A stretch of 9,216 nt of DNA from Clostridiales bacterium. Lineage in GTDB: Bacteria; Bacillota_A; Clostridia; Peptostreptococcales; Anaerovoracaceae. The notes under the pieces were generated by a model. That model saw only the letters and a program-made list of their open reading frames with translations. It had not been told where the DNA came from and did not search any database. The stretch covers positions 1 to 9,216 of the forward strand of contig JAAZHB010000201.1 in NCBI GenBank assembly GCA_012510935.1. Reading direction: 5' to 3'. The translations under genes were made by a program, and so were the position numbers. Position 1 is the stretch's first letter. Every line of letters begins with the position of its first letter. This document shows, piece by piece, positions 341-7,090 of this stretch.

Positions 341-1777
341 ATGATAAGATTTTATTTTGCGCTATGGGCAGCAAAATTATGCGATTGGTATTTTAAAATT
401 AAAGGACAGAAGAGAAACGACTGGCCGGGACTCCTTGCTTTCAAGATCTGTTCAGATTTTCTTAAGAGAATTGCTAAACCTAAGCTTGTTATAACAGTTA
501 CAGGTACCAACGGCAAGACCACCACTTCTGCTCTTATCAATAATATGCTTTTGGAAGAAGGCTACAAGGTTAGCTTTAACGACTGGGGTGCTAATTTGCA
601 CGCGGGATATTGCCTTAACCTTATGCGTGGAGTAAATGCTTTCAACAAATGCGTAATTGATGCGTCTGTTCTTGAAGCTGATGAGAAAACCCTAGGCTAT
701 ACCATGGGCATGGTTGAGCCGGATTATATTTTAGTTACAAATATTTGCAAGGACTCACTTCGTAGGAACGGCCATCCAGAATATATTTTCGACTGTGTGA
801 ATAAGGCTTTCAATAAACTTGGAAGTAAGACCACAGCTATTCTAAATGCAAATGATCCAATAAGCTCTAAACTAGCAGAAGGAACTGGCACTAAGAGAGT
901 TTTCTTTGGAATGGCTGATGCGCATACAGAGCCTTTTGAAAATAGAGTTAAAGATATTTGGGTATGCCCAAATTGCGGGGCTGACATAAAGTATCACTAT
1001 AGACACTACAGACATATCGGAGATTTTTACTGCCCTGAGTGCGGTTTTGCACCACCTGAAGCAAAATACTATGCTGAGAGCGTTAACCTTGATGGTAGAG
1101 AGGCTGTTGTGTGCGAGAATGGGGTTAAAACAAGTTATCCGCTTATTTCCGAGACAGTATATAATGCGTTCAATGTAATGTCTGCAATTGCTGTACTAAG
1201 AGAGGCGGGGATTGCTTCACAGAAAATTGCTGATTTTCTCAGCACACAGAAGGTAACGAAGATTCGCGAGAACTTTATTGAGTATAATGGCATCGAGTAC
1301 CATGCTTATGGAACTAAGAGCCAGAATGTCAGCGCTGCATCAACCGTATTTGAACATATGGCGAAAGAACCTTCTATAAAGGAAGTTGTTTTTTGCATGG
1401 ACGAGGTTCAGGATAAAAACCATCCAACTGAGACGATTACTTGGATTTACGAGACTGACTATGAGTTCTTGAAGTCTCCTAATATCAAGAAAATCGTGTG
1501 CGCAGGGCATATGTTCTTGAACCACAAGCTGAGACTCCTTCTCGCCGGTATTCCTGAGGAGAAAATCGTATGTGTTGAAGACGATTCTCTTGTACCGGAG
1601 TTTATCGATACAGAGGGAATTGAGAAGGTCTATGTTTTATTTGAAATAGATTATGTCGTTAAAGGCGCTAGCTGGCGAGATGCGATTGTCGAAAGAGCTA
1701 TGAGACTTAATGGGGACGAGAGTAAACTGGAGTCCGAAGATGTATTCAAGAATCTTGACAAGGAGGCTTCAAAATAA
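341..1777 (+). CDS. MurT-like Mur ligase (divergent MurT paralog, DUF1727-type C-terminus)
   Basis: The protein resembles MurT, the ATP-dependent Mur ligase subunit that with GatD amidates D-Glu of lipid II in Gram-positive bacteria. What is seen: an N-terminal stretch with a PGL element (29-31), the Mur ligase P-loop TGTNGKTTT (54-62), an acidic LEADE motif (111-115), a four-Cys zinc ribbon (CPNCG at 209-213, CPECG at 231-235) and YNAFNVMSAIAVL (274-286). At 478 aa it is in the MurT size range. Several MurT signatures are altered. The usual TNLFRDQLDRYGE is here TNICKDSLRRNGHPEY (133-148). The KNPAG segment reads KSQNVS (326-331). The ADGxDxSWIWD block is DKNHPTETITWIY (358-370). The C-terminal PTYTAM is not recognisable. 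The SD-like GATGAGGT at 327-334 supports the start. The stop overlaps the next ATG (TAATG), so the two are probably coupled. Family membership is fairly sure; the reaction is unknown, since a classical MurT role would need an active GatD. Confidence 0.85.
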   Translation: MIRFYFALWAAKLCDWYFKIKGQKRNDWPGLLAFKICSDFLKRIAKPKLVITVTGTNGKTTTSALINNMLLEEGYKVSFNDWGANLHAGYCLNLMRGVNAFNKCVIDASVLEADEKTLGYTMGMVEPDYILVTNICKDSLRRNGHPEYIFDCVNKAFNKLGSKTTAILNANDPISSKLAEGTGTKRVFFGMADAHTEPFENRVKDIWVCPNCGADIKYHYRHYRHIGDFYCPECGFAPPEAKYYAESVNLDGREAVVCENGVKTSYPLISETVYNAFNVMSAIAVLREAGIASQKIADFLSTQKVTKIRENFIEYNGIEYHAYGTKSQNVSAASTVFEHMAKEPSIKEVVFCMDEVQDKNHPTETITWIYETDYEFLKSPNIKKIVCAGHMFLNHKLRLLLAGIPEEKIVCVEDDSLVPEFIDTEGIEKVYVLFEIDYVVKGASWRDAIVERAMRLNGDESKLESEDVFKNLDKEASK

Positions 1778-2493
1778 TGAAAAAGTTAGAATTACTATTT
1801 CCAGAGCTTTGTAACATATATGCAGAGAGCTACAATGTTACATATTTACAGAAGTCATGTAAAGAACTTGAGGTAATCGAGACTAGACATACTGACAAGC
1901 CGGCCTTTGTTTCGGAAGATGTTGATATGATTTATCTTGGTTGTGCATCCGAGAGAAAACAGGAACAGATTATTGAAATTCTCAGACCTTACAAGAATAG
2001 GATTGTAGAATTAATTGATAAAGGCGTCGTTTTCCTAGTTACTGGAAATGCATGCGAAATCTTTGGGAAAAGCATCAAAGATGAGGACAGAATTATTGAT
2101 GGACTTGGAATTTTCGACTTCAATGCAGTTCGTGATTTGAACGGGGAAAGACATAACAGTCAATATGTTGGAACCTTTACTGACGATAATGGAGAATCCA
2201 TTCTGATGCTAGGGCACAGGAGCCAGTTCTCTTTCTCCTATGGGGACTTTGAGCAAAATAAGTTCATCGACATTGAGATTGGCATTGGAATGAATCCTGA
2301 GACGAAAGCTGAAGGACTTTATAAGAATAATTTTTTCGCAACATACTCACTTGGACCATATTTGATTATGAATCCACTTTTTGCAAAATATCTTCTGAGA
2401 AAAATTGGAGTTGATGATAGTCTAGCTTTCGAGAAGGAAGCTGTTGAAGCATATGAGTATAGAAGAGATGAGTTAAGAAAGAATTTGGGTTAA
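1777..2493 (+). CDS. GatD-like glutamine amidotransferase, apparently catalytically dead
   Basis: This is a class I glutamine amidotransferase-like protein of GatD length (238 aa). GatD normally hydrolyses glutamine and channels ammonia to MurT. The fold landmarks align: YLGCASERKQ (53-62) corresponds to the GGGSDREQ region, DGLGIFDF (108-115) to GLGILDF, and TYSLGPYLIMNP (189-200) to the TYLHGPxLxxNP motif. The nucleophile site is not conserved. Where GatD has ICGGYQFLG this protein has TGNACEIFG (89-97), so the catalytic Cys falls on Gly90 (codon GGA at 2044). The catalytic His falls on Leu192 (codon CTT at 2350). A Cys at 93 is three residues late. Glutaminase activity is therefore unlikely. 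The reading frame is intact and its codons look like those of its neighbours, so it is not a decaying pseudogene. AGGAGG at 1761-1766 and the one-base overlap fix the start. It may be a structural or allosteric partner of the MurT-like protein. Confidence 0.82.
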   Translation: MKKLELLFPELCNIYAESYNVTYLQKSCKELEVIETRHTDKPAFVSEDVDMIYLGCASERKQEQIIEILRPYKNRIVELIDKGVVFLVTGNACEIFGKSIKDEDRIIDGLGIFDFNAVRDLNGERHNSQYVGTFTDDNGESILMLGHRSQFSFSYGDFEQNKFIDIEIGIGMNPETKAEGLYKNNFFATYSLGPYLIMNPLFAKYLLRKIGVDDSLAFEKEAVEAYEYRRDELRKNLG

Positions 2494-2579: not shown

Positions 2580-3593
2580 ATGAATGTAGTATATCTTTTT
2601 AGAAGACTTAAAGGCATGAATTATGGGCGTGCGCTTCAATCTGCAAAGCATGTTGCAAATATTACGGGCAAGAGCACAGCCTCAGTAATGATGGATATTG
2701 TAGATTGTTATAAGAAGCATGGCACTGGCTATGTAGATTATGAAACTTTTGAAATGTACAATATGAATGATGCTCAGCGTGCAGAAATTCTTTCGGTAAG
2801 TAAGAATAATATGATGGTTAGAAAGCTGAACCAGGCTGACAAAAGGTTCTATCTTGACGATAAGGCGGTCTTTAATAAGCATTATGATAAGTTTATTAAG
2901 AGAGACTGGCTCTTGATTGATGGAGATAATTTTGATGCTTTTGATAAGTTCTGTGAAGACAAGGAAAGCATATTTATGAAGCCTCTTGATCAGAGCTGTG
3001 GAGCGGGAATCGAGAAGCTTCGTATGGAGGATTATCCTACGAGGGAAGATAGACATGCTTTATACCAGAGACTTTTGGCAGATAAATGCGTGCTTGCTGA
3101 GGAAGTTGTTGTTCAATGCGAGGAGATGAGTAAGCTTTGCACAACATCTGTTAACACAGTAAGACTTGTTACTATACTTAAGGATGGCGTCGTTCATGTT
3201 GCTGCTGGTGCAATTCGTATGGGTAAGGAAGGCGCTTTTGTAGATAACTTTAACCATGGAGGACTAGCAGTTCTAGTTGATGTTAATAAAGGTGAATCTG
3301 TCACCGATGGATATGACAAATGGAGAAAAACCTACGAGTACACACCGATTCTTGGAACTAAGTTGAAAGGCTTCAAAATCCCTCAATGGGAGGCCTGCGT
3401 AGAACTTGTTAAAGAAGCGGCCCTCGTTGTCCCTGAAGTAAGATATATAGCGTGGGATGTATGTATAACAGAGAACTATGGTCCATTACTAATTGAAGGG
3501 AACGCATATCCAGGGCAGGATGTAACGCAATACCCTAAACTCAATCTTGGTACATACAAAGAGTTCAAGAAGATTTTGGGTGACGAGATATAA
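2580..3593 (+). CDS. ATP-grasp protein, sugar-transfer associated type
   Basis: The 337-aa protein has the features of the ATP-grasp family often filed as 'sugar-transfer associated ATP-grasp'. ATP-grasp enzymes activate a carboxylate as acyl-phosphate and join it to an amine or similar nucleophile. Visible motifs: FMKPLDQSCGAGI (132-144), with the nucleotide-binding Lys and glycine loop; an acidic pair EE (174-175); NTVRLVTI (192-199); DNFNHGG (222-228); WDVCI (292-296); and a C-terminal metal-binding segment LIEGNAYPGQD (304-314) with Glu306 and Asn308. The first 100 residues resemble no domain I can name. It follows the GatD-like gene by 86 bases with no clear terminator or strong promoter between, so co-transcription with the Mur ligase pair is likely. 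The substrate is unknown. The neighbourhood suggests a cell-wall or surface-polymer precursor, which is inference. Confidence 0.82.
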   Translation: MNVVYLFRRLKGMNYGRALQSAKHVANITGKSTASVMMDIVDCYKKHGTGYVDYETFEMYNMNDAQRAEILSVSKNNMMVRKLNQADKRFYLDDKAVFNKHYDKFIKRDWLLIDGDNFDAFDKFCEDKESIFMKPLDQSCGAGIEKLRMEDYPTREDRHALYQRLLADKCVLAEEVVVQCEEMSKLCTTSVNTVRLVTILKDGVVHVAAGAIRMGKEGAFVDNFNHGGLAVLVDVNKGESVTDGYDKWRKTYEYTPILGTKLKGFKIPQWEACVELVKEAALVVPEVRYIAWDVCITENYGPLLIEGNAYPGQDVTQYPKLNLGTYKEFKKILGDEI

Positions 3594-3679
3594 TAACGCA
3601 ATGCTTTAAATAAAGCGATGAGAGAAGTTAAAGAGAAATAAATAGTCTATTACTATTAAAGAGATGAGGTGGATTCAAT

Positions 3680-4966
3680 ATGCTAAGATTTAGCGAGGAT
3701 GGGCAGGTACTTAATGAGGACGAATATAGTGCAATTCTAGTTGGCCTTGAGTTAAATGAGGATATCTCATATTCTATGAAAGAATTAGAAGGTCTTGCTG
3801 AGGCCGCAAATGTCGATGTTGAAGCCATAATGGTGCAACATCTTGAGAGACCCAACAATGCAACCTTTATTGGCAAGGGAAAGGTTGAAGAACTTGCTGA
3901 TCTTGCAGCGAAGCTCGAGGTTGACACAGTGATTTTTAATGATGAACTAACTGGAGTTCAAATTCGTAATCTGGAGGATGCAACTGGCAAAAGAGTAATT
4001 GATAGAACGATTCTAATATTAGATATTTTTGCAGCAAGAGCGAGCTCTAAAGAAGGAAAATTGCAAGTTGAACTTGCACAGCTGCAATATAGAATGCCAA
4101 GATTAACGGGTTTTGGTAATTCACTATCTAGATTAGGCGGTGGAATTGGGACTAGAGGCCCTGGAGAGAAGAAACTTGAGACTGATAAGAGGCACATCCG
4201 AAGAAGAATTGACGATATTCGGGCTGAACTTAAAGAGATAAAGAGTACAAGAGAGACTCAGCGTTCAAGAAGAGTGAAGAACGAAATTCCGCTTGTTGCA
4301 TTGGTAGGTTATACAAATTCTGGAAAGTCTGCTATCATGAATCGGCTTATGTCGATTACTGACAAAGATGAGAAAATGGTTTTTGAGAAGGACATGCTTT
4401 TCGCGACTCTCGACACTGCGCAAAGAAATGTAGTGCTTGACTCTAACCACCAATTTATTCTTATTGATACTGTCGGTTTTGTAAGTAAGCTTCCACACTC
4501 TCTTGTAAACGCGTTTAAATCTACTTTGGAAGAAGTATGTTATGCGGATTTGCTCGTGCATGTCGTTGATGCGGCTTACGATAATCACGAATTTCAGATA
4601 GAGGTAACAGACAAGGTTATTAAAGAGATTGGTGCGGGCGATAAGGAGAAAATTATCGCATACAACAAATGTGATTTAATAAGAGAAGAGGACGAGACTC
4701 TTCTGCCAAGATATGGTTGCGATACAGTATATGTGTCTGCTAAAGAAGGAAGAAACATAGACGAACTGATTGAGCAAATTAAGTCCAAAATATATAAGAA
4801 CCATGTTATTGCAGATTTGCTTATTCCTTATTCTAGGGGAGATTTATCATCATATTTGTGCGAGAAAGCCTCAGTCAATGTTATGGAGTATCGAGATGAT
4901 GGTACTTTCTTTAATGCTGAACTGAAGCTTGAAGATTACAATCGTTATAAAGAATTTGAAATTTAA
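3680..4966 (+). CDS. hflX: GTPase HflX
   Basis: HflX is a ribosome-binding GTPase that splits stalled or heat-damaged 70S ribosomes. The order of domains is standard. An N-terminal HflX domain contains FIGKGKVEEL (63-72). The glycine-rich linker TRGPGEKKLETDKR (158-171) follows, then a helical region and the G domain: G1 GYTNSGKS (210-217), G2 FATLD (241-245), G3 DTVGF (263-267), G4 NKCD (329-332) and G5 SAKEG (353-357). The short C-terminal domain extends to residue 428, a normal length. GAGGTGG at 3666-3672 lies seven bases before the ATG. The leader GAGATGAGGT matches that of the MurT-like gene, so both use the same style of initiation region. It stands 86 bases after the ATP-grasp gene. 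Whether it has its own promoter is not clear; no convincing -35/-10 pair was found. Confidence 0.96.
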   Translation: MLRFSEDGQVLNEDEYSAILVGLELNEDISYSMKELEGLAEAANVDVEAIMVQHLERPNNATFIGKGKVEELADLAAKLEVDTVIFNDELTGVQIRNLEDATGKRVIDRTILILDIFAARASSKEGKLQVELAQLQYRMPRLTGFGNSLSRLGGGIGTRGPGEKKLETDKRHIRRRIDDIRAELKEIKSTRETQRSRRVKNEIPLVALVGYTNSGKSAIMNRLMSITDKDEKMVFEKDMLFATLDTAQRNVVLDSNHQFILIDTVGFVSKLPHSLVNAFKSTLEEVCYADLLVHVVDAAYDNHEFQIEVTDKVIKEIGAGDKEKIIAYNKCDLIREEDETLLPRYGCDTVYVSAKEGRNIDELIEQIKSKIYKNHVIADLLIPYSRGDLSSYLCEKASVNVMEYRDDGTFFNAELKLEDYNRYKEFEI

Positions 4967-4977
4967 TAGAGAAAAAT

Positions 4978-5010
4978 GAGAGCTGTCAAAGAAAATGTTT
5001 GACAGCTCTC
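4978..5010 (+). terminator. Hairpin after hflX, possible terminator with a weak U-tract
   Basis: A perfect 13-bp stem pairs GAGAGCTGTCAAA (4978-4990) with TTTGACAGCTCTC (4998-5010) around a 7-base loop. It starts 11 bases after the hflX stop. The following bases (TCTAGTTATGTT) are only partly T-rich, so termination may be incomplete. The right arm contains the -35 box of the next promoter. Confidence 0.55.
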
Positions 5011-5027
5011 TCTAGTTATGTTATAGT
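4999..5027 (+). promoter_or_regulatory. Consensus vegetative promoter for ylxM-ffh, predicting a leaderless mRNA
   Basis: TTGACA (4999-5004, perfect -35) and TATAGT (5022-5027, one base off the -10 consensus) are separated by exactly 17 bases. The expected start of transcription is about 5033-5036, and the ylxM ATG is at 5036, so the mRNA would have essentially no leader. No Shine-Dalgarno sequence precedes this ATG, which fits. Confidence 0.65.
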
Positions 5028-5035
5028 ACCTAAGT

Positions 5036-5398
5036 ATGAAAGAAGATATTAGCACAGTTGAATACGCAAGTCTTTTATATGATTTTTACGGAGACCTTCT
5101 GAATGATAAGCAGTCAAATGTAATGGGCTTATATCATGAAGATAATTTGAGTTTATCGGAAATAGCCGATGATCTTGGTATGACAAGGCAGGCCGTACAT
5201 TACACTCTTAAGAAAGCTGAAGGAAGCCTAGAGAAGTATGAGGAGAAGCTTAAGCTGATTTCCAAGTATTTGAATAATGAGGCGGAGATTAACAGTGCTC
5301 TTAAGAAGCTTGATGAGATTGAAGAAGAAGGATTAAGCGCTGATAATATGAAGCGTTTTGCAGATATAAAGAAGATTTTAGAGAGGTTAGCAGACTAG
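5036..5398 (+). CDS. ylxM: YlxM/p13-family SRP-associated helix-turn-helix protein
   Basis: This small protein is found next to ffh in most Firmicutes and is linked to the signal recognition particle. In streptococci a YlxM is reported to bind SRP components. The 120 residues show the family pattern: LLYDFYGDLLNDKQ (13-26); a sigma-70 region 4-like helix-turn-helix, LSLSEIADDLGMTRQAVHYTLKKAE (38-62, shown here in outline only); then a charged helical tail. It is slightly longer than the usual 105-115 aa. The start is forced: a stop (TAG at 5024) lies just upstream in frame, and no other start codon precedes the conserved YDFYG. The ATG has no ribosome binding site. ffh begins three bases after the stop, so the pair is one unit. 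Confidence 0.92.
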   Translation: MKEDISTVEYASLLYDFYGDLLNDKQSNVMGLYHEDNLSLSEIADDLGMTRQAVHYTLKKAEGSLEKYEEKLKLISKYLNNEAEINSALKKLDEIEEEGLSADNMKRFADIKKILERLAD

Positions 5399-5401
5399 AC
5401 T

Positions 5402-6745
5402 ATGGCATTTGAAGGTTTATCTGAAAAACTACAGAATACATTTAAGACTCTTCGTGGTAAGGGTGTCCTGACAGAGAAGGATATCGATGCGGCGATGAAG
5501 GATGTTAAGATGGCGTTGCTTGAGGCAGACGTCAACTTTAAGGTTGTTAAACAGCTGGTTGCTTCTATCAAGGAGAAGTCGCTTGGCTCAGATGTTATGT
5601 CAAGCCTTACACCAGGGCAGCAAGTTGTAAAGATTGTAAACGAAGAGCTCGTTACTCTAATGGGTGGCGCAGGAAGTAAGCTCACCTTTTCACCTAGTGG
5701 GTTTTCCATCTATATGATGGTTGGATTGCAAGGTACTGGTAAGACCACAACAACTGGTAAGCTCGCAAATTACATGAAGCAACAGGGGAAGAAACCTATG
5801 CTTTGCGCATGTGATGTATATAGACCGGCTGCTATAGATCAGCTCGAAGTTGTTGGTAAGGCTGTAAATACACCAGTGTTTACAATGCGCGAGTCAAACA
5901 ATCCAGTTGAGATTGCCCAAGCGGCAGTCAAAGAAGCACAGCGCAAAGGTTGCAATGTACTTATTGTGGATACCGCCGGAAGACTTCAGATAGATGAAGC
6001 ACTGATGGATGAGCTAGTTCAGATTAAGAAGACTATTAGACCACATGAGATTCTTCTTGTAGTTGATGCTTTGACTGGACAAGATGCCGTTAACATTGCA
6101 TCAGGATTTGACGATGCGCTTGGTGTTGATGGAATCGTAATGACAAAGATGGACGGTGACTCAAGAGGAGGAGCTGCTCTTTCAGTAAAGTCTGTAACAG
6201 GCAAGCCAATTAAGTTCATGGGAACTGGCGAGAAGTATGATGCTCTCGAGCCTTTCCACCCAGACAGAATTGCATCAAGAATTCTTGGAATGGGTGATGT
6301 AATGAGCTTGATTGAGCAAGCTGAGACAGCCTTTGACGAGCAAGAAGCAAAGAAGCTTGAAGAGAAGATGAGAAAGAATAAGTTCGATTTGGACGATTAT
6401 CTGGCTCAGTTCAAGCAAATTAACAAGCTCGGTGGAGTATCTAAGATTATTGATATGATGCCTGGAATTAGTGCATCAGATAAGAAAGATATAGATATAG
6501 ACAAGACAAACAAGGACCTTTCACACATGGAAGCAATTATCAAGTCCATGACAAAGCAAGAGAGGAAAGATCCGTCAGTGCTGAACGCAAGTAGACGTAA
6601 GAGAATTGCGGCTGGAAGCGGCAGACCAGTGTCTGAAATAAATAAGCTTATCAAGCAATATGATGAGATGCGCAAGATGATGAAGAAATTCACGCAAGGT
6701 GGTCTTGGCGGCATGGGAAAGAAGATGTTTAGAGGCTTTAAGTAG
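5402..6745 (+). CDS. ffh: Signal recognition particle protein Ffh (SRP54)
   Basis: Ffh binds signal sequences of nascent membrane and secreted proteins and, with SRP RNA and FtsY, delivers ribosomes to the translocon. The 447 aa follow the N-G-M layout. The N domain helical bundle spans about 1-95. In the G domain are G1 GLQGTGKTTT (108-117), DVYRPAAIDQL (138-148), DTAGR (190-194), TKMDGD (248-253) and GTGE (274-277). The methionine-rich M domain runs from about 300, with the SRP-RNA binding part SGRP (406-409) and a Met/Lys-rich tail (422-443). Length is normal. Only a weak AGAGG (5382-5386) lies 15 bases upstream, so translation is probably coupled to ylxM, which ends three bases before. 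It shares the ylxM promoter. The 102 bases after it hold a weak AT-rich dyad but no convincing terminator. Confidence 0.98.
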   Translation: MAFEGLSEKLQNTFKTLRGKGVLTEKDIDAAMKDVKMALLEADVNFKVVKQLVASIKEKSLGSDVMSSLTPGQQVVKIVNEELVTLMGGAGSKLTFSPSGFSIYMMVGLQGTGKTTTTGKLANYMKQQGKKPMLCACDVYRPAAIDQLEVVGKAVNTPVFTMRESNNPVEIAQAAVKEAQRKGCNVLIVDTAGRLQIDEALMDELVQIKKTIRPHEILLVVDALTGQDAVNIASGFDDALGVDGIVMTKMDGDSRGGAALSVKSVTGKPIKFMGTGEKYDALEPFHPDRIASRILGMGDVMSLIEQAETAFDEQEAKKLEEKMRKNKFDLDDYLAQFKQINKLGGVSKIIDMMPGISASDKKDIDIDKTNKDLSHMEAIIKSMTKQERKDPSVLNASRRKRIAAGSGRPVSEINKLIKQYDEMRKMMKKFTQGGLGGMGKKMFRGFK

Positions 6746-6847
6746 TCTTAGCATATAGCAACGTTCAATATACAGAATATAATGTTGGACTGTTTGCACT
6801 TTAAATAGTTACCAATTTTTAAAATTATTGTTTAGGAGGAAATACCA

Positions 6848-7090
6848 ATGGTAAAGATTAGACTTAAGAGAATGGGCGCTCACAAGAGACCTTTCTACAG
6901 AGTAGTAGTAGCGGATTCAAGAAATCCAAGAGATGGAAAGTTCATCGAGGAGATTGGAACATTCAATCCACTTACAGATCCAGCAGAGATCAAAATTGAT
7001 AATGAAGCAGCGCAGAAGTGGCTTGCTAACGGAGCTCAGCCAACAGATACAGTAAGAGCTCTTCTTAAGAAGTCCGGCGCAATAAAGTAA
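6848..7090 (+). CDS. rpsP: 30S ribosomal protein S16
   Basis: S16 is a small structural protein needed for 30S assembly. The 80 residues begin with the family signature [20 protein letters not shown] (2-21), followed by [20 protein letters not shown]. The length is normal for Gram-positive S16. AGGAGGA (6834-6840) seven bases before the ATG is the strongest ribosome site in the window, as expected for a highly translated gene. It is followed 18 bases later by khpA. A dedicated promoter between ffh and this gene could not be identified with confidence. Confidence 0.98.

Follow-up and report, generated by a model that had tools for sequence, protein, structure and literature searches.

The window analyzed here is a stretch of 9,216 nucleotides (contig JAAZHB010000201.1, assembly GCA_012510935.1) from a Clostridiales bacterium of the family Anaerovoracaceae, and it codes for a pair of proteins related to MurT and GatD, which in Gram-positive walls amidate D-Glu with nitrogen taken from glutamine. 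The GatD-like member, called here pseudo-GatD, has lost the residues of the glutaminase triad, and its MurT-like partner is altered as well. The pair comprises the following genes and features.

341..1777, + strand: MurT-like ligase of 478 amino acids, with Mur_ligase_M, a Cys4 zinc ribbon and MurT_C; partner of pseudo-GatD
749..778, + strand: KDSLRRNGHP, MurT residues 137-146, the rewritten active-site and ammonia-channel loop (canonical RDQxDRxGEx; columns of an alignment of 159 pairs)
1319..1324, + strand: two-residue insertion, MurT residues 327-328, after the conserved Lys326 (canonical K-N; alignment)
1433..1435, + strand: MurT Thr365, at the position of the third triad residue (S. aureus MurT Asp349; alignment with S. 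aureus MurT)
1761..1766, + strand: AGGAGG, probable ribosome-binding site of pseudo-GatD, read in the sequence
1777..2493, + strand: pseudo-GatD, 238 amino acids, triad residues gone (open reading frame, Pfam, PDB matches, alignment and model)
1942..1944, + strand: Cys56 in the former oxyanion loop (canonical GGG, here GCA), a candidate alternative nucleophile (near-family alignment)
2041..2049, + strand: Thr89-Gly90-Asn91, the former nucleophile elbow, with Gly90 at the place of S. aureus Cys94 (alignment and strand/helix junction)
2056..2058, + strand: Glu94, replacing the Gln found four residues after the catalytic Cys (alignment columns)
2149..2151, + strand: Arg125, aligned with the glutamine-capturing Arg128 of S. 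aureus and retained (alignment columns)
2350..2352, + strand: Leu192, at the position of the catalytic His189 (alignment columns)

The two genes are adjacent, with the murT stop codon TAA (1775-1777) overlapping the gatD ATG by one base. The intact frame claimed by the first-pass annotation, which was made from the sequence alone, is borne out, as the open reading frame of pseudo-GatD starts with ATG and runs for its 238 codons without an internal stop. The AlphaFold model has a predicted local distance difference test score (pLDDT) of 89, and its six top structural matches are all GatD chains, with 19-24 % identity in the structural alignments. The sequence itself is distant, as GATase_3 of Pfam is found at 32.9 bits, just above its cut-off of 27, and both NCBIfam models for GatD are weak (51.4 bits for an equivalog cut-off of 450, and 42 bits for a cut-off of 400). 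The top PDB sequence matches are nevertheless S. aureus GatD (5n9m, E 8e-13; 6gs2, E 9e-13).

In S. aureus, Cys94 and His189 of GatD, together with Asp349 of MurT, have the roles of a glutaminase triad, as described in an excerpt of PMC6113224. We followed these positions in two sets of sequences. The near family consists of the query and 120 of 279 database matches listed (121 aligned rows, with one match identical to the query). The second set holds 159 distinct MurT/GatD pairs and is enriched for loci without the Cys, so that class counts are not frequencies; pairs with a MurT of <380 amino acids or a GatD outside 180-340 amino acids, which are truncated or split (e.g., L012, L015, L021, L025, and L033), were left out. 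The pairs are canonical (n=39), type A (n=3, without the Cys but with canonical MurT motifs), type B (n=107, the kind found in the window), or type C (n=10, a third Cys-less class).

The first-pass annotation had proposed that Gly90 stands for the nucleophile and Leu192 for the catalytic His, and the alignments confirm both replacements. The nucleophile column has Cys in 39/39 canonical GatDs and Gly in 103/107 of type B, while the His column has His in all 39 canonical sequences and in 0/107 of type B. Within the near family, Thr89, Gly90, Asn91, Glu94, Phe96, and the run Ser191-Leu192-Gly193-Pro194 are invariant in the 121 listed rows, which argues that the motif reflects neither chance nor sequencing error, and both Cys and His are gone from every near relative that was read. 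The oxyanion loop is also lost, being GGG in all 39 canonical GatDs and Gly55-Cys56-Ala57 in the window. The register that equates Gly90 with the Cys relies on the sequence alignment and on the junction between strand 85-89 and helix 90-96, and it is supported by L218, a near relative of canonical GatD whose elbow reads VGNSYPMLG, with Gly in the Cys position and the Tyr at +3 retained.

Several residues could in principle replace the missing ones. Cys93, already treated as a doubtful substitute in the first-pass annotation, was rejected as a nucleophile, as it occurs in only 3/121 listed rows (the others have mostly Val or Ile) and lies inside helix 90-96, past the elbow. We also rejected a four-ligand metal site in the old pocket (Cys12, Cys56, His126, and His147), as Cys12 is replaced by Thr in L020, L022-L024, and L026, and His147 by Gln in L029. 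A His placed one or two residues before the canonical one is present in 14/107 type B rows, five of them with TYHTGP, and there it may conceivably act as a functional substitute; the window has none at these places. The best candidate substitute for the nucleophile is Cys56, which would make the protein a relocated glutaminase acting from the old oxyanion loop with His126 or His147. In the near family these residues are well kept (Cys56 in 120/121 listed rows, both His in 121/121), but across type B position 56 is highly variable (C 31, T 27, S 20, P 15, A 10, G 2, and N 2 of 107), His126 and His147 are found in only 32/107 and 26/107 rows, and the near-family locus L029 lacks the second of them. 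We know of no precedent for a glutaminase relocated to an oxyanion-loop Cys, and we consider this explanation very improbable.

It could also be asked whether the gene is a decaying relic, or an artefact of annotation or sequencing. The loss of the catalytic residues would fit such an origin, as would the split MurT frames of two relatives (L015 at 5629-7001 and L021 at 5630-7001), where two open reading frames stand in place of the single one of the relative L017 through assembly error or decay. However, the ratio of nonsynonymous to synonymous substitution rates (dN/dS) is 0.025-0.20 in the 6/12 compared relative pairs with finite dS (two of the near family and four of the TYHTGP group), dS being saturated in the other six, including all three with the window protein. 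These low values, together with the invariant motif, are clearly against a relic, and a MurT gene adjoins wherever the contig covers that side, so that we regard decay or artefact as extremely improbable.

The MurT-like protein has the domains expected of the ligase, with Mur_ligase_M (55.7 bits) and MurT_C (64.5 bits) above the Pfam cut-offs and PDB matches to 7q8e and 6gs2 at E 2.1e-42 and 2.9e-42 (S. aureus MurT at E 2.1e-42). The NCBIfam equivalog models for MurT give 164.2 and 127.3 bits, under the cut-off of 800 that applies to each. The zinc ribbon with four Cys, the Lys of the P-loop, the Asn of GAN, and the ExDE motif are all present in the window protein, and the same core is kept throughout type B (Lys59 in 106/107, Asn85 of GAN in 106, Glu112 in 106, Asp114 in 106, Glu115 in 107, Arg142 in 105, and Lys326 in 107, with each of the four zinc cysteines in at least 105/107). 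According to an excerpt of PMC6085368, most of these residues have counterparts in S. pneumoniae that are needed or proposed for binding ATP and the acceptor.

Around this core, three regions have changed. The third triad column has Asp in 39/39 canonical MurTs, in 19/107 of type B, and Thr365 in the window. In the loop at residues 137-146, position 141 is Asp in 39/39 canonical sequences against 1/107 of type B, position 143 is Tyr or Phe in 35/39 against Asn in 99/107, and position 145 is Glu in 38/39 against His in 100/107. The corresponding loop of S. pneumoniae MurT is positioned where an ammonia channel could form (PMC6085368, in part). Last, the two-residue insertion after Lys326 is absent from 39/39 canonical and 3/3 type A sequences and present in 107/107 of type B and 10/10 of type C. 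With changes at the triad Asp and in both the acceptor and the C-terminal loop, and with an intact ATP and ligase core, the window partner is, by its residues, no ordinary MurT. Paralogues of MurT with damaged ligase motifs were also seen, one in L019 (2-1216, with the P-loop LGTDDAAD) and one in L148 (GAN and ExDE changed), and in L109, L141, and L143 no GatD neighbouring the MurT-like gene was detected in the stretch fetched.

The old glutamine pocket is modified rather than erased. Position 94 is Gln in 38/39 canonical GatDs, while type B has Glu in 94/107 and Asp in 12/107. The elbow residues Thr89 and Asn91 are kept in 100/107 and 105/107 type B rows, and Arg125 is found in 39/39 canonical and 104/107 type B sequences (Lys in the remaining 3) but in 0/10 of type C. 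Its counterpart in canonical GatD (Arg128 in S. aureus) captures glutamine (PMC6085368). A pocket so conserved would suit a regulatory subunit that binds glutamine or another amino acid and switches MurT, with no role in nitrogen supply. The change from Gln to Glu at position 94 and the loss of the oxyanion loop speak against glutamine as that ligand, and a regulatory role seems to us improbable.

The changes in the two subunits go together. Cys and His are present in 39/159 pairs, and the MurT loop and Asp are canonical in all 39 of these; the remaining 120 pairs have lost both Cys and His, and no pair has lost only one of them. The MurT loop is altered in 117 of these 120, and by a motif rule 107 of the altered pairs also lack the Asp and 10 keep it (by alignment column, as above, it is the 19 of type B that keep it). 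The other three are the type A pairs L213, L217, and L218, whose GatD lacks Cys and His beside a MurT that is canonical in the motifs checked. In an unrooted tree of 73 representatives, made with a quick method after masking the trait columns and with L218 as the only type A row, the canonical pairs and L218 lie together on one side of a branch with a Shimodaira-Hasegawa-like approximate likelihood ratio test (SH-aLRT) value of 99, and the tree requires two changes for the Cys trait and one for the MurT loop. This is, as far as such a tree of sequences can tell, one deep split at which both subunits changed jointly, plus one or more independent losses that affected only the glutaminase, and the conversion of GatD into a non-catalytic partner seems to have taken place in nature at least twice.

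When one genome per species was scanned, 35 relative loci were obtained. The named carriers are Baileyella intestinalis, Mobilibacterium timonense, and Candidatus Crickella merdequi, the last of which belongs to Anaerovoracaceae by NCBI ranks. The near family of the window accounts for 30/35 of these loci, one of which ends at a contig edge before the His position, and the other five (L030, L031, L032, L034, and L035) code for TGNAFELFG and TYHTGP, in which the His precedes its usual position by one residue. MurT_C is found in all 35 genomes, once in nine, twice in 25, and four times in one. Despite the extra copies of MurT_C, a second, canonical pair elsewhere in the same genomes was rejected, as all 65 distinct GatD-like sequences that were read in the 35 relative loci and the window lack the Cys. 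We did find two Cys-less MurT/GatD pairs within a few kilobases on one contig in L004, L005, L006, L009, L010, L014, L016, and L019.

More widely, the order of genome G028 has MurT_C in 44/198 genomes, and the 40 read are 25 of type B, 9 of type C, and 6 canonical. In a sample of the class, MurT_C was found in 212/391 genomes, and the 71 read are 33 of type B, 33 canonical, 3 of type A, and 2 of type C, with 141 unread; the genomes read were taken from the top ranks by the MurT_C model or by a Cys-less GatD profile and from a hand-picked set, so that the ratio of 33:33 is not a frequency. Canonical and Cys-less pairs were never found together in one genome (0/135 genomes with a read pair). The Cys-less pair of the window is thus, from the sequences read, no one-off, as many Clostridia carry such pairs and, among the pairs read, no canonical one.

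Sequence and model together establish that pseudo-GatD has the GatD fold and is paired with murT, that the triad and the GGG loop are lost, and that the MurT core is kept while its acceptor loop is rewritten. With the residues gone in all near relatives read, and with fold and pairing kept, the proposal of a non-glutaminase selected as such and still paired with its Mur ligase is supported, and we think it likely that pseudo-GatD is the non-glutaminase partner of a MurT-type ligase that does not depend on glutamine. Scaffold, regulator, and ammonia-independent partner are the putative roles that the first-pass annotation suggested for it. In such a system, MurT would use ATP to activate the D-Glu alpha-carboxyl of the lipid-linked stem peptide, pseudo-GatD would dock on the C-terminal domain of MurT and be needed for its active conformation, and the attacking amine would come from a source other than glutamine. 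This suggests that Clostridia with such pairs modify their cell wall without glutamine.

As to what that amine could be, we favour a change of nucleophile over plain ammonia, with somewhat less than even confidence; the unchanged carboxyl would be attacked by an amino acid or some other amine, of the kind that group B peptidoglycan needs. Our preference is due to the way the old glutamine pocket (Glu for Gln at 94, with Arg125 kept) shifted together with two loops of MurT, the acceptor loop and the C-terminal one, and to the fact that canonical and Cys-less pairs never co-occur in the genomes read.

The link to group B walls comes from type C, which is recognized by an elbow that is mostly TGT[ST], by FTNxLGP, and by the MurT loop KDQVQRNG[DE]P in the loci. 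Its members (L136, L137, L139, L140, L142, L144-L147, and L214, and the proteins P0232 and P0242) include Acetobacterium woodii, and of the 320 matches of a protein search with one member, the 120 listed include A. woodii, A. carbinolicum, Aminicella lysinilytica, and Eubacterium spp.; the protein of A. woodii has LVTGTT, that of A. carbinolicum LVTGTS, and both have FTNTLGP. The neighbours of the type C loci are mostly tRNA modification genes, MiaB, and M50 peptidases, with one VanY and one polysaccharide exporter or MurJ-like protein, and none is common to all loci. Acetobacterium and E. limosum have group B murein, and in group B walls the cross-bridge is attached to the alpha-carboxyl of D-Glu. 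A MurT/GatD that amidates this carboxyl would therefore be useless there, while a MurT with another nucleophile would have a role. The genus-level entry for Eubacterium in Table 1 of PMC11382707 lists B2alpha beside A types.

The main competitor of the changed nucleophile is free ammonia. In that case D-isoglutamine would still be made in lipid II, MurT would take ammonia from the medium, and pseudo-GatD would be structural only. Many of the relatives have record titles indicating rumen or faeces, and both are habitats high in ammonia. The change of Cys to Gly in the window is also identical to that of the S. aureus GatD mutant C94G, which in an excerpt of PMC3266927 keeps NH3-dependent amidation of lipid II at pH 8.5 and loses the glutamine-dependent reaction, neither subunit working alone. 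The same excerpt reports that S. aureus MurT/GatD, whether wild type or C94G, does not use ammonia at pH 7.5. Ammonia alone would moreover leave unexplained the rewritten MurT loop and the two-residue insertion of types B and C, as well as the two murT genes in 25/35 genomes. We see ammonia as a serious possibility, if one a little below the changed nucleophile.

Some observations weigh against the changed nucleophile, or at least against how far it can be taken. The ammonia-dependent amidation retained by C94G (PMC3266927, in part) shows that loss of the Cys by itself still leaves amidation with ammonia, and the three type A pairs, which lost Cys and His while their checked MurT motifs are unchanged, are the type that fits free ammonia best. 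The joint change of the subunits is a single event on the tree, so the 117 altered pairs are not 117 independent observations, and the mutual exclusion of canonical and Cys-less pairs is incomplete, as some second murT copies fall outside the reading. Type B, the class of the window, is distinct from type C, the class of Acetobacterium, which makes the group B argument an analogy, and a literature search gave no peptidoglycan type for the organism of the window or for Anaerovoracaceae. The support as a whole comes from sequence and predicted fold.

Downstream of the pair lies a conserved neighbour.

2580..3593, + strand: ATPgrasp_ST ligase-like gene (PF14397, 173.1 bits)

Its likely start is the ATG at 2580, with AAGGAG read in the sequence at 2568-2573. 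The window and its 35 relatives make up 36 loci, of which 26 have a gene of this ATP-grasp family (F2); in 21 a member is encoded on the same strand as the pair, and the next commonest neighbour family is present in 8. A further member of the ATP-grasp family adjoins a type B pair in L230. A PDB sequence search with the ATP-grasp neighbour gave no match at E 0.01. In L019, one GatD (2969-3676) comes after the ATP-grasp gene and before a MurT (3679-5058). The placing of an ATP-grasp enzyme next to a re-tooled Mur ligase would suit a peptide-bridge pathway, though this is no proof of one. Other proteins of the window are, by Pfam, an HflX-like GTPase, a YlxM-like protein, and an HlyD-like protein, and further genes presumably code for the signal recognition particle protein, ribosomal protein S16, a KH protein, RimM, and TrmD.

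In the most specific form of the changed-nucleophile reading, the first committed step of a group B-type cross-bridge in Clostridia would be taken by the Cys-less pairs, as the missing ligases that join an amino acid or diamine to the D-Glu alpha-carboxyl of lipid-linked precursors, with pseudo-GatD converted from an ammonia source into the docking or amine-binding subunit and the linked ATP-grasp enzyme extending the bridge. This full scheme we put forward as speculative and, in all its parts together, rather unlikely. Several homologues are labelled "type 1 glutamine amidotransferase" or "predicted glutamine amidotransferase". Should many pairs of Clostridia be unable to hydrolyse glutamine and have a re-tooled ligase, these labels would be mistaken, as would any wall structures deduced from them, and the genes would be candidates for a step of cell-wall chemistry without an assigned enzyme. 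With a triad replaced in nature, the pair also offers a ready system for separating the structural role of GatD from its catalytic one.

Compared with the GatDs of known lipid II isoglutaminyl synthases (S. aureus 5n9m, 6gs2, and 6h5e; S. pneumoniae 6fqb; S. pyogenes 9sq9 and 9sqj), the window protein shares the GATase_3 domain, the fold, and the adjacency to murT, but it lacks the catalytic Cys, the His, and the GGG loop, has the low identity given above, and stays under both NCBIfam cut-offs. Its partner shares with canonical MurT the Mur ligase middle domain, the zinc ribbon, MurT_C, and the residues for ATP and the carboxylate, and differs in Thr365 for Asp, in the loop KDSLRRNGHP, in the two-residue insertion, and in equivalog scores below the cut-off. 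Among the open-licence papers listed by our searches we found no description of a Cys-less GatD, although an earlier one may be in print. A Cys-less GatD with an altered MurT is supported as a variant of the MurT/GatD kind, and the original interpretation of a non-glutaminase is upheld in its core and widened beyond this locus. A natural amidotransferase with a Cys-less glutaminase domain is known in mammalian carbamoyl-phosphate synthetase I, which uses free ammonia but is a different synthase with a fused chain. The nearest experimental counterpart is S. aureus GatD C94G, which as described in an excerpt of PMC3266927 has Gly at the same nucleophile position, uses ammonia only, and is still needed by MurT. 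Unlike the window pair, the mutant is an artificial single change that keeps His189, MurT Asp349, and the canonical loop, yet its behaviour in that excerpt shows that Gly at the elbow does not prevent a GatD from being an obligatory, non-catalytic partner of MurT.

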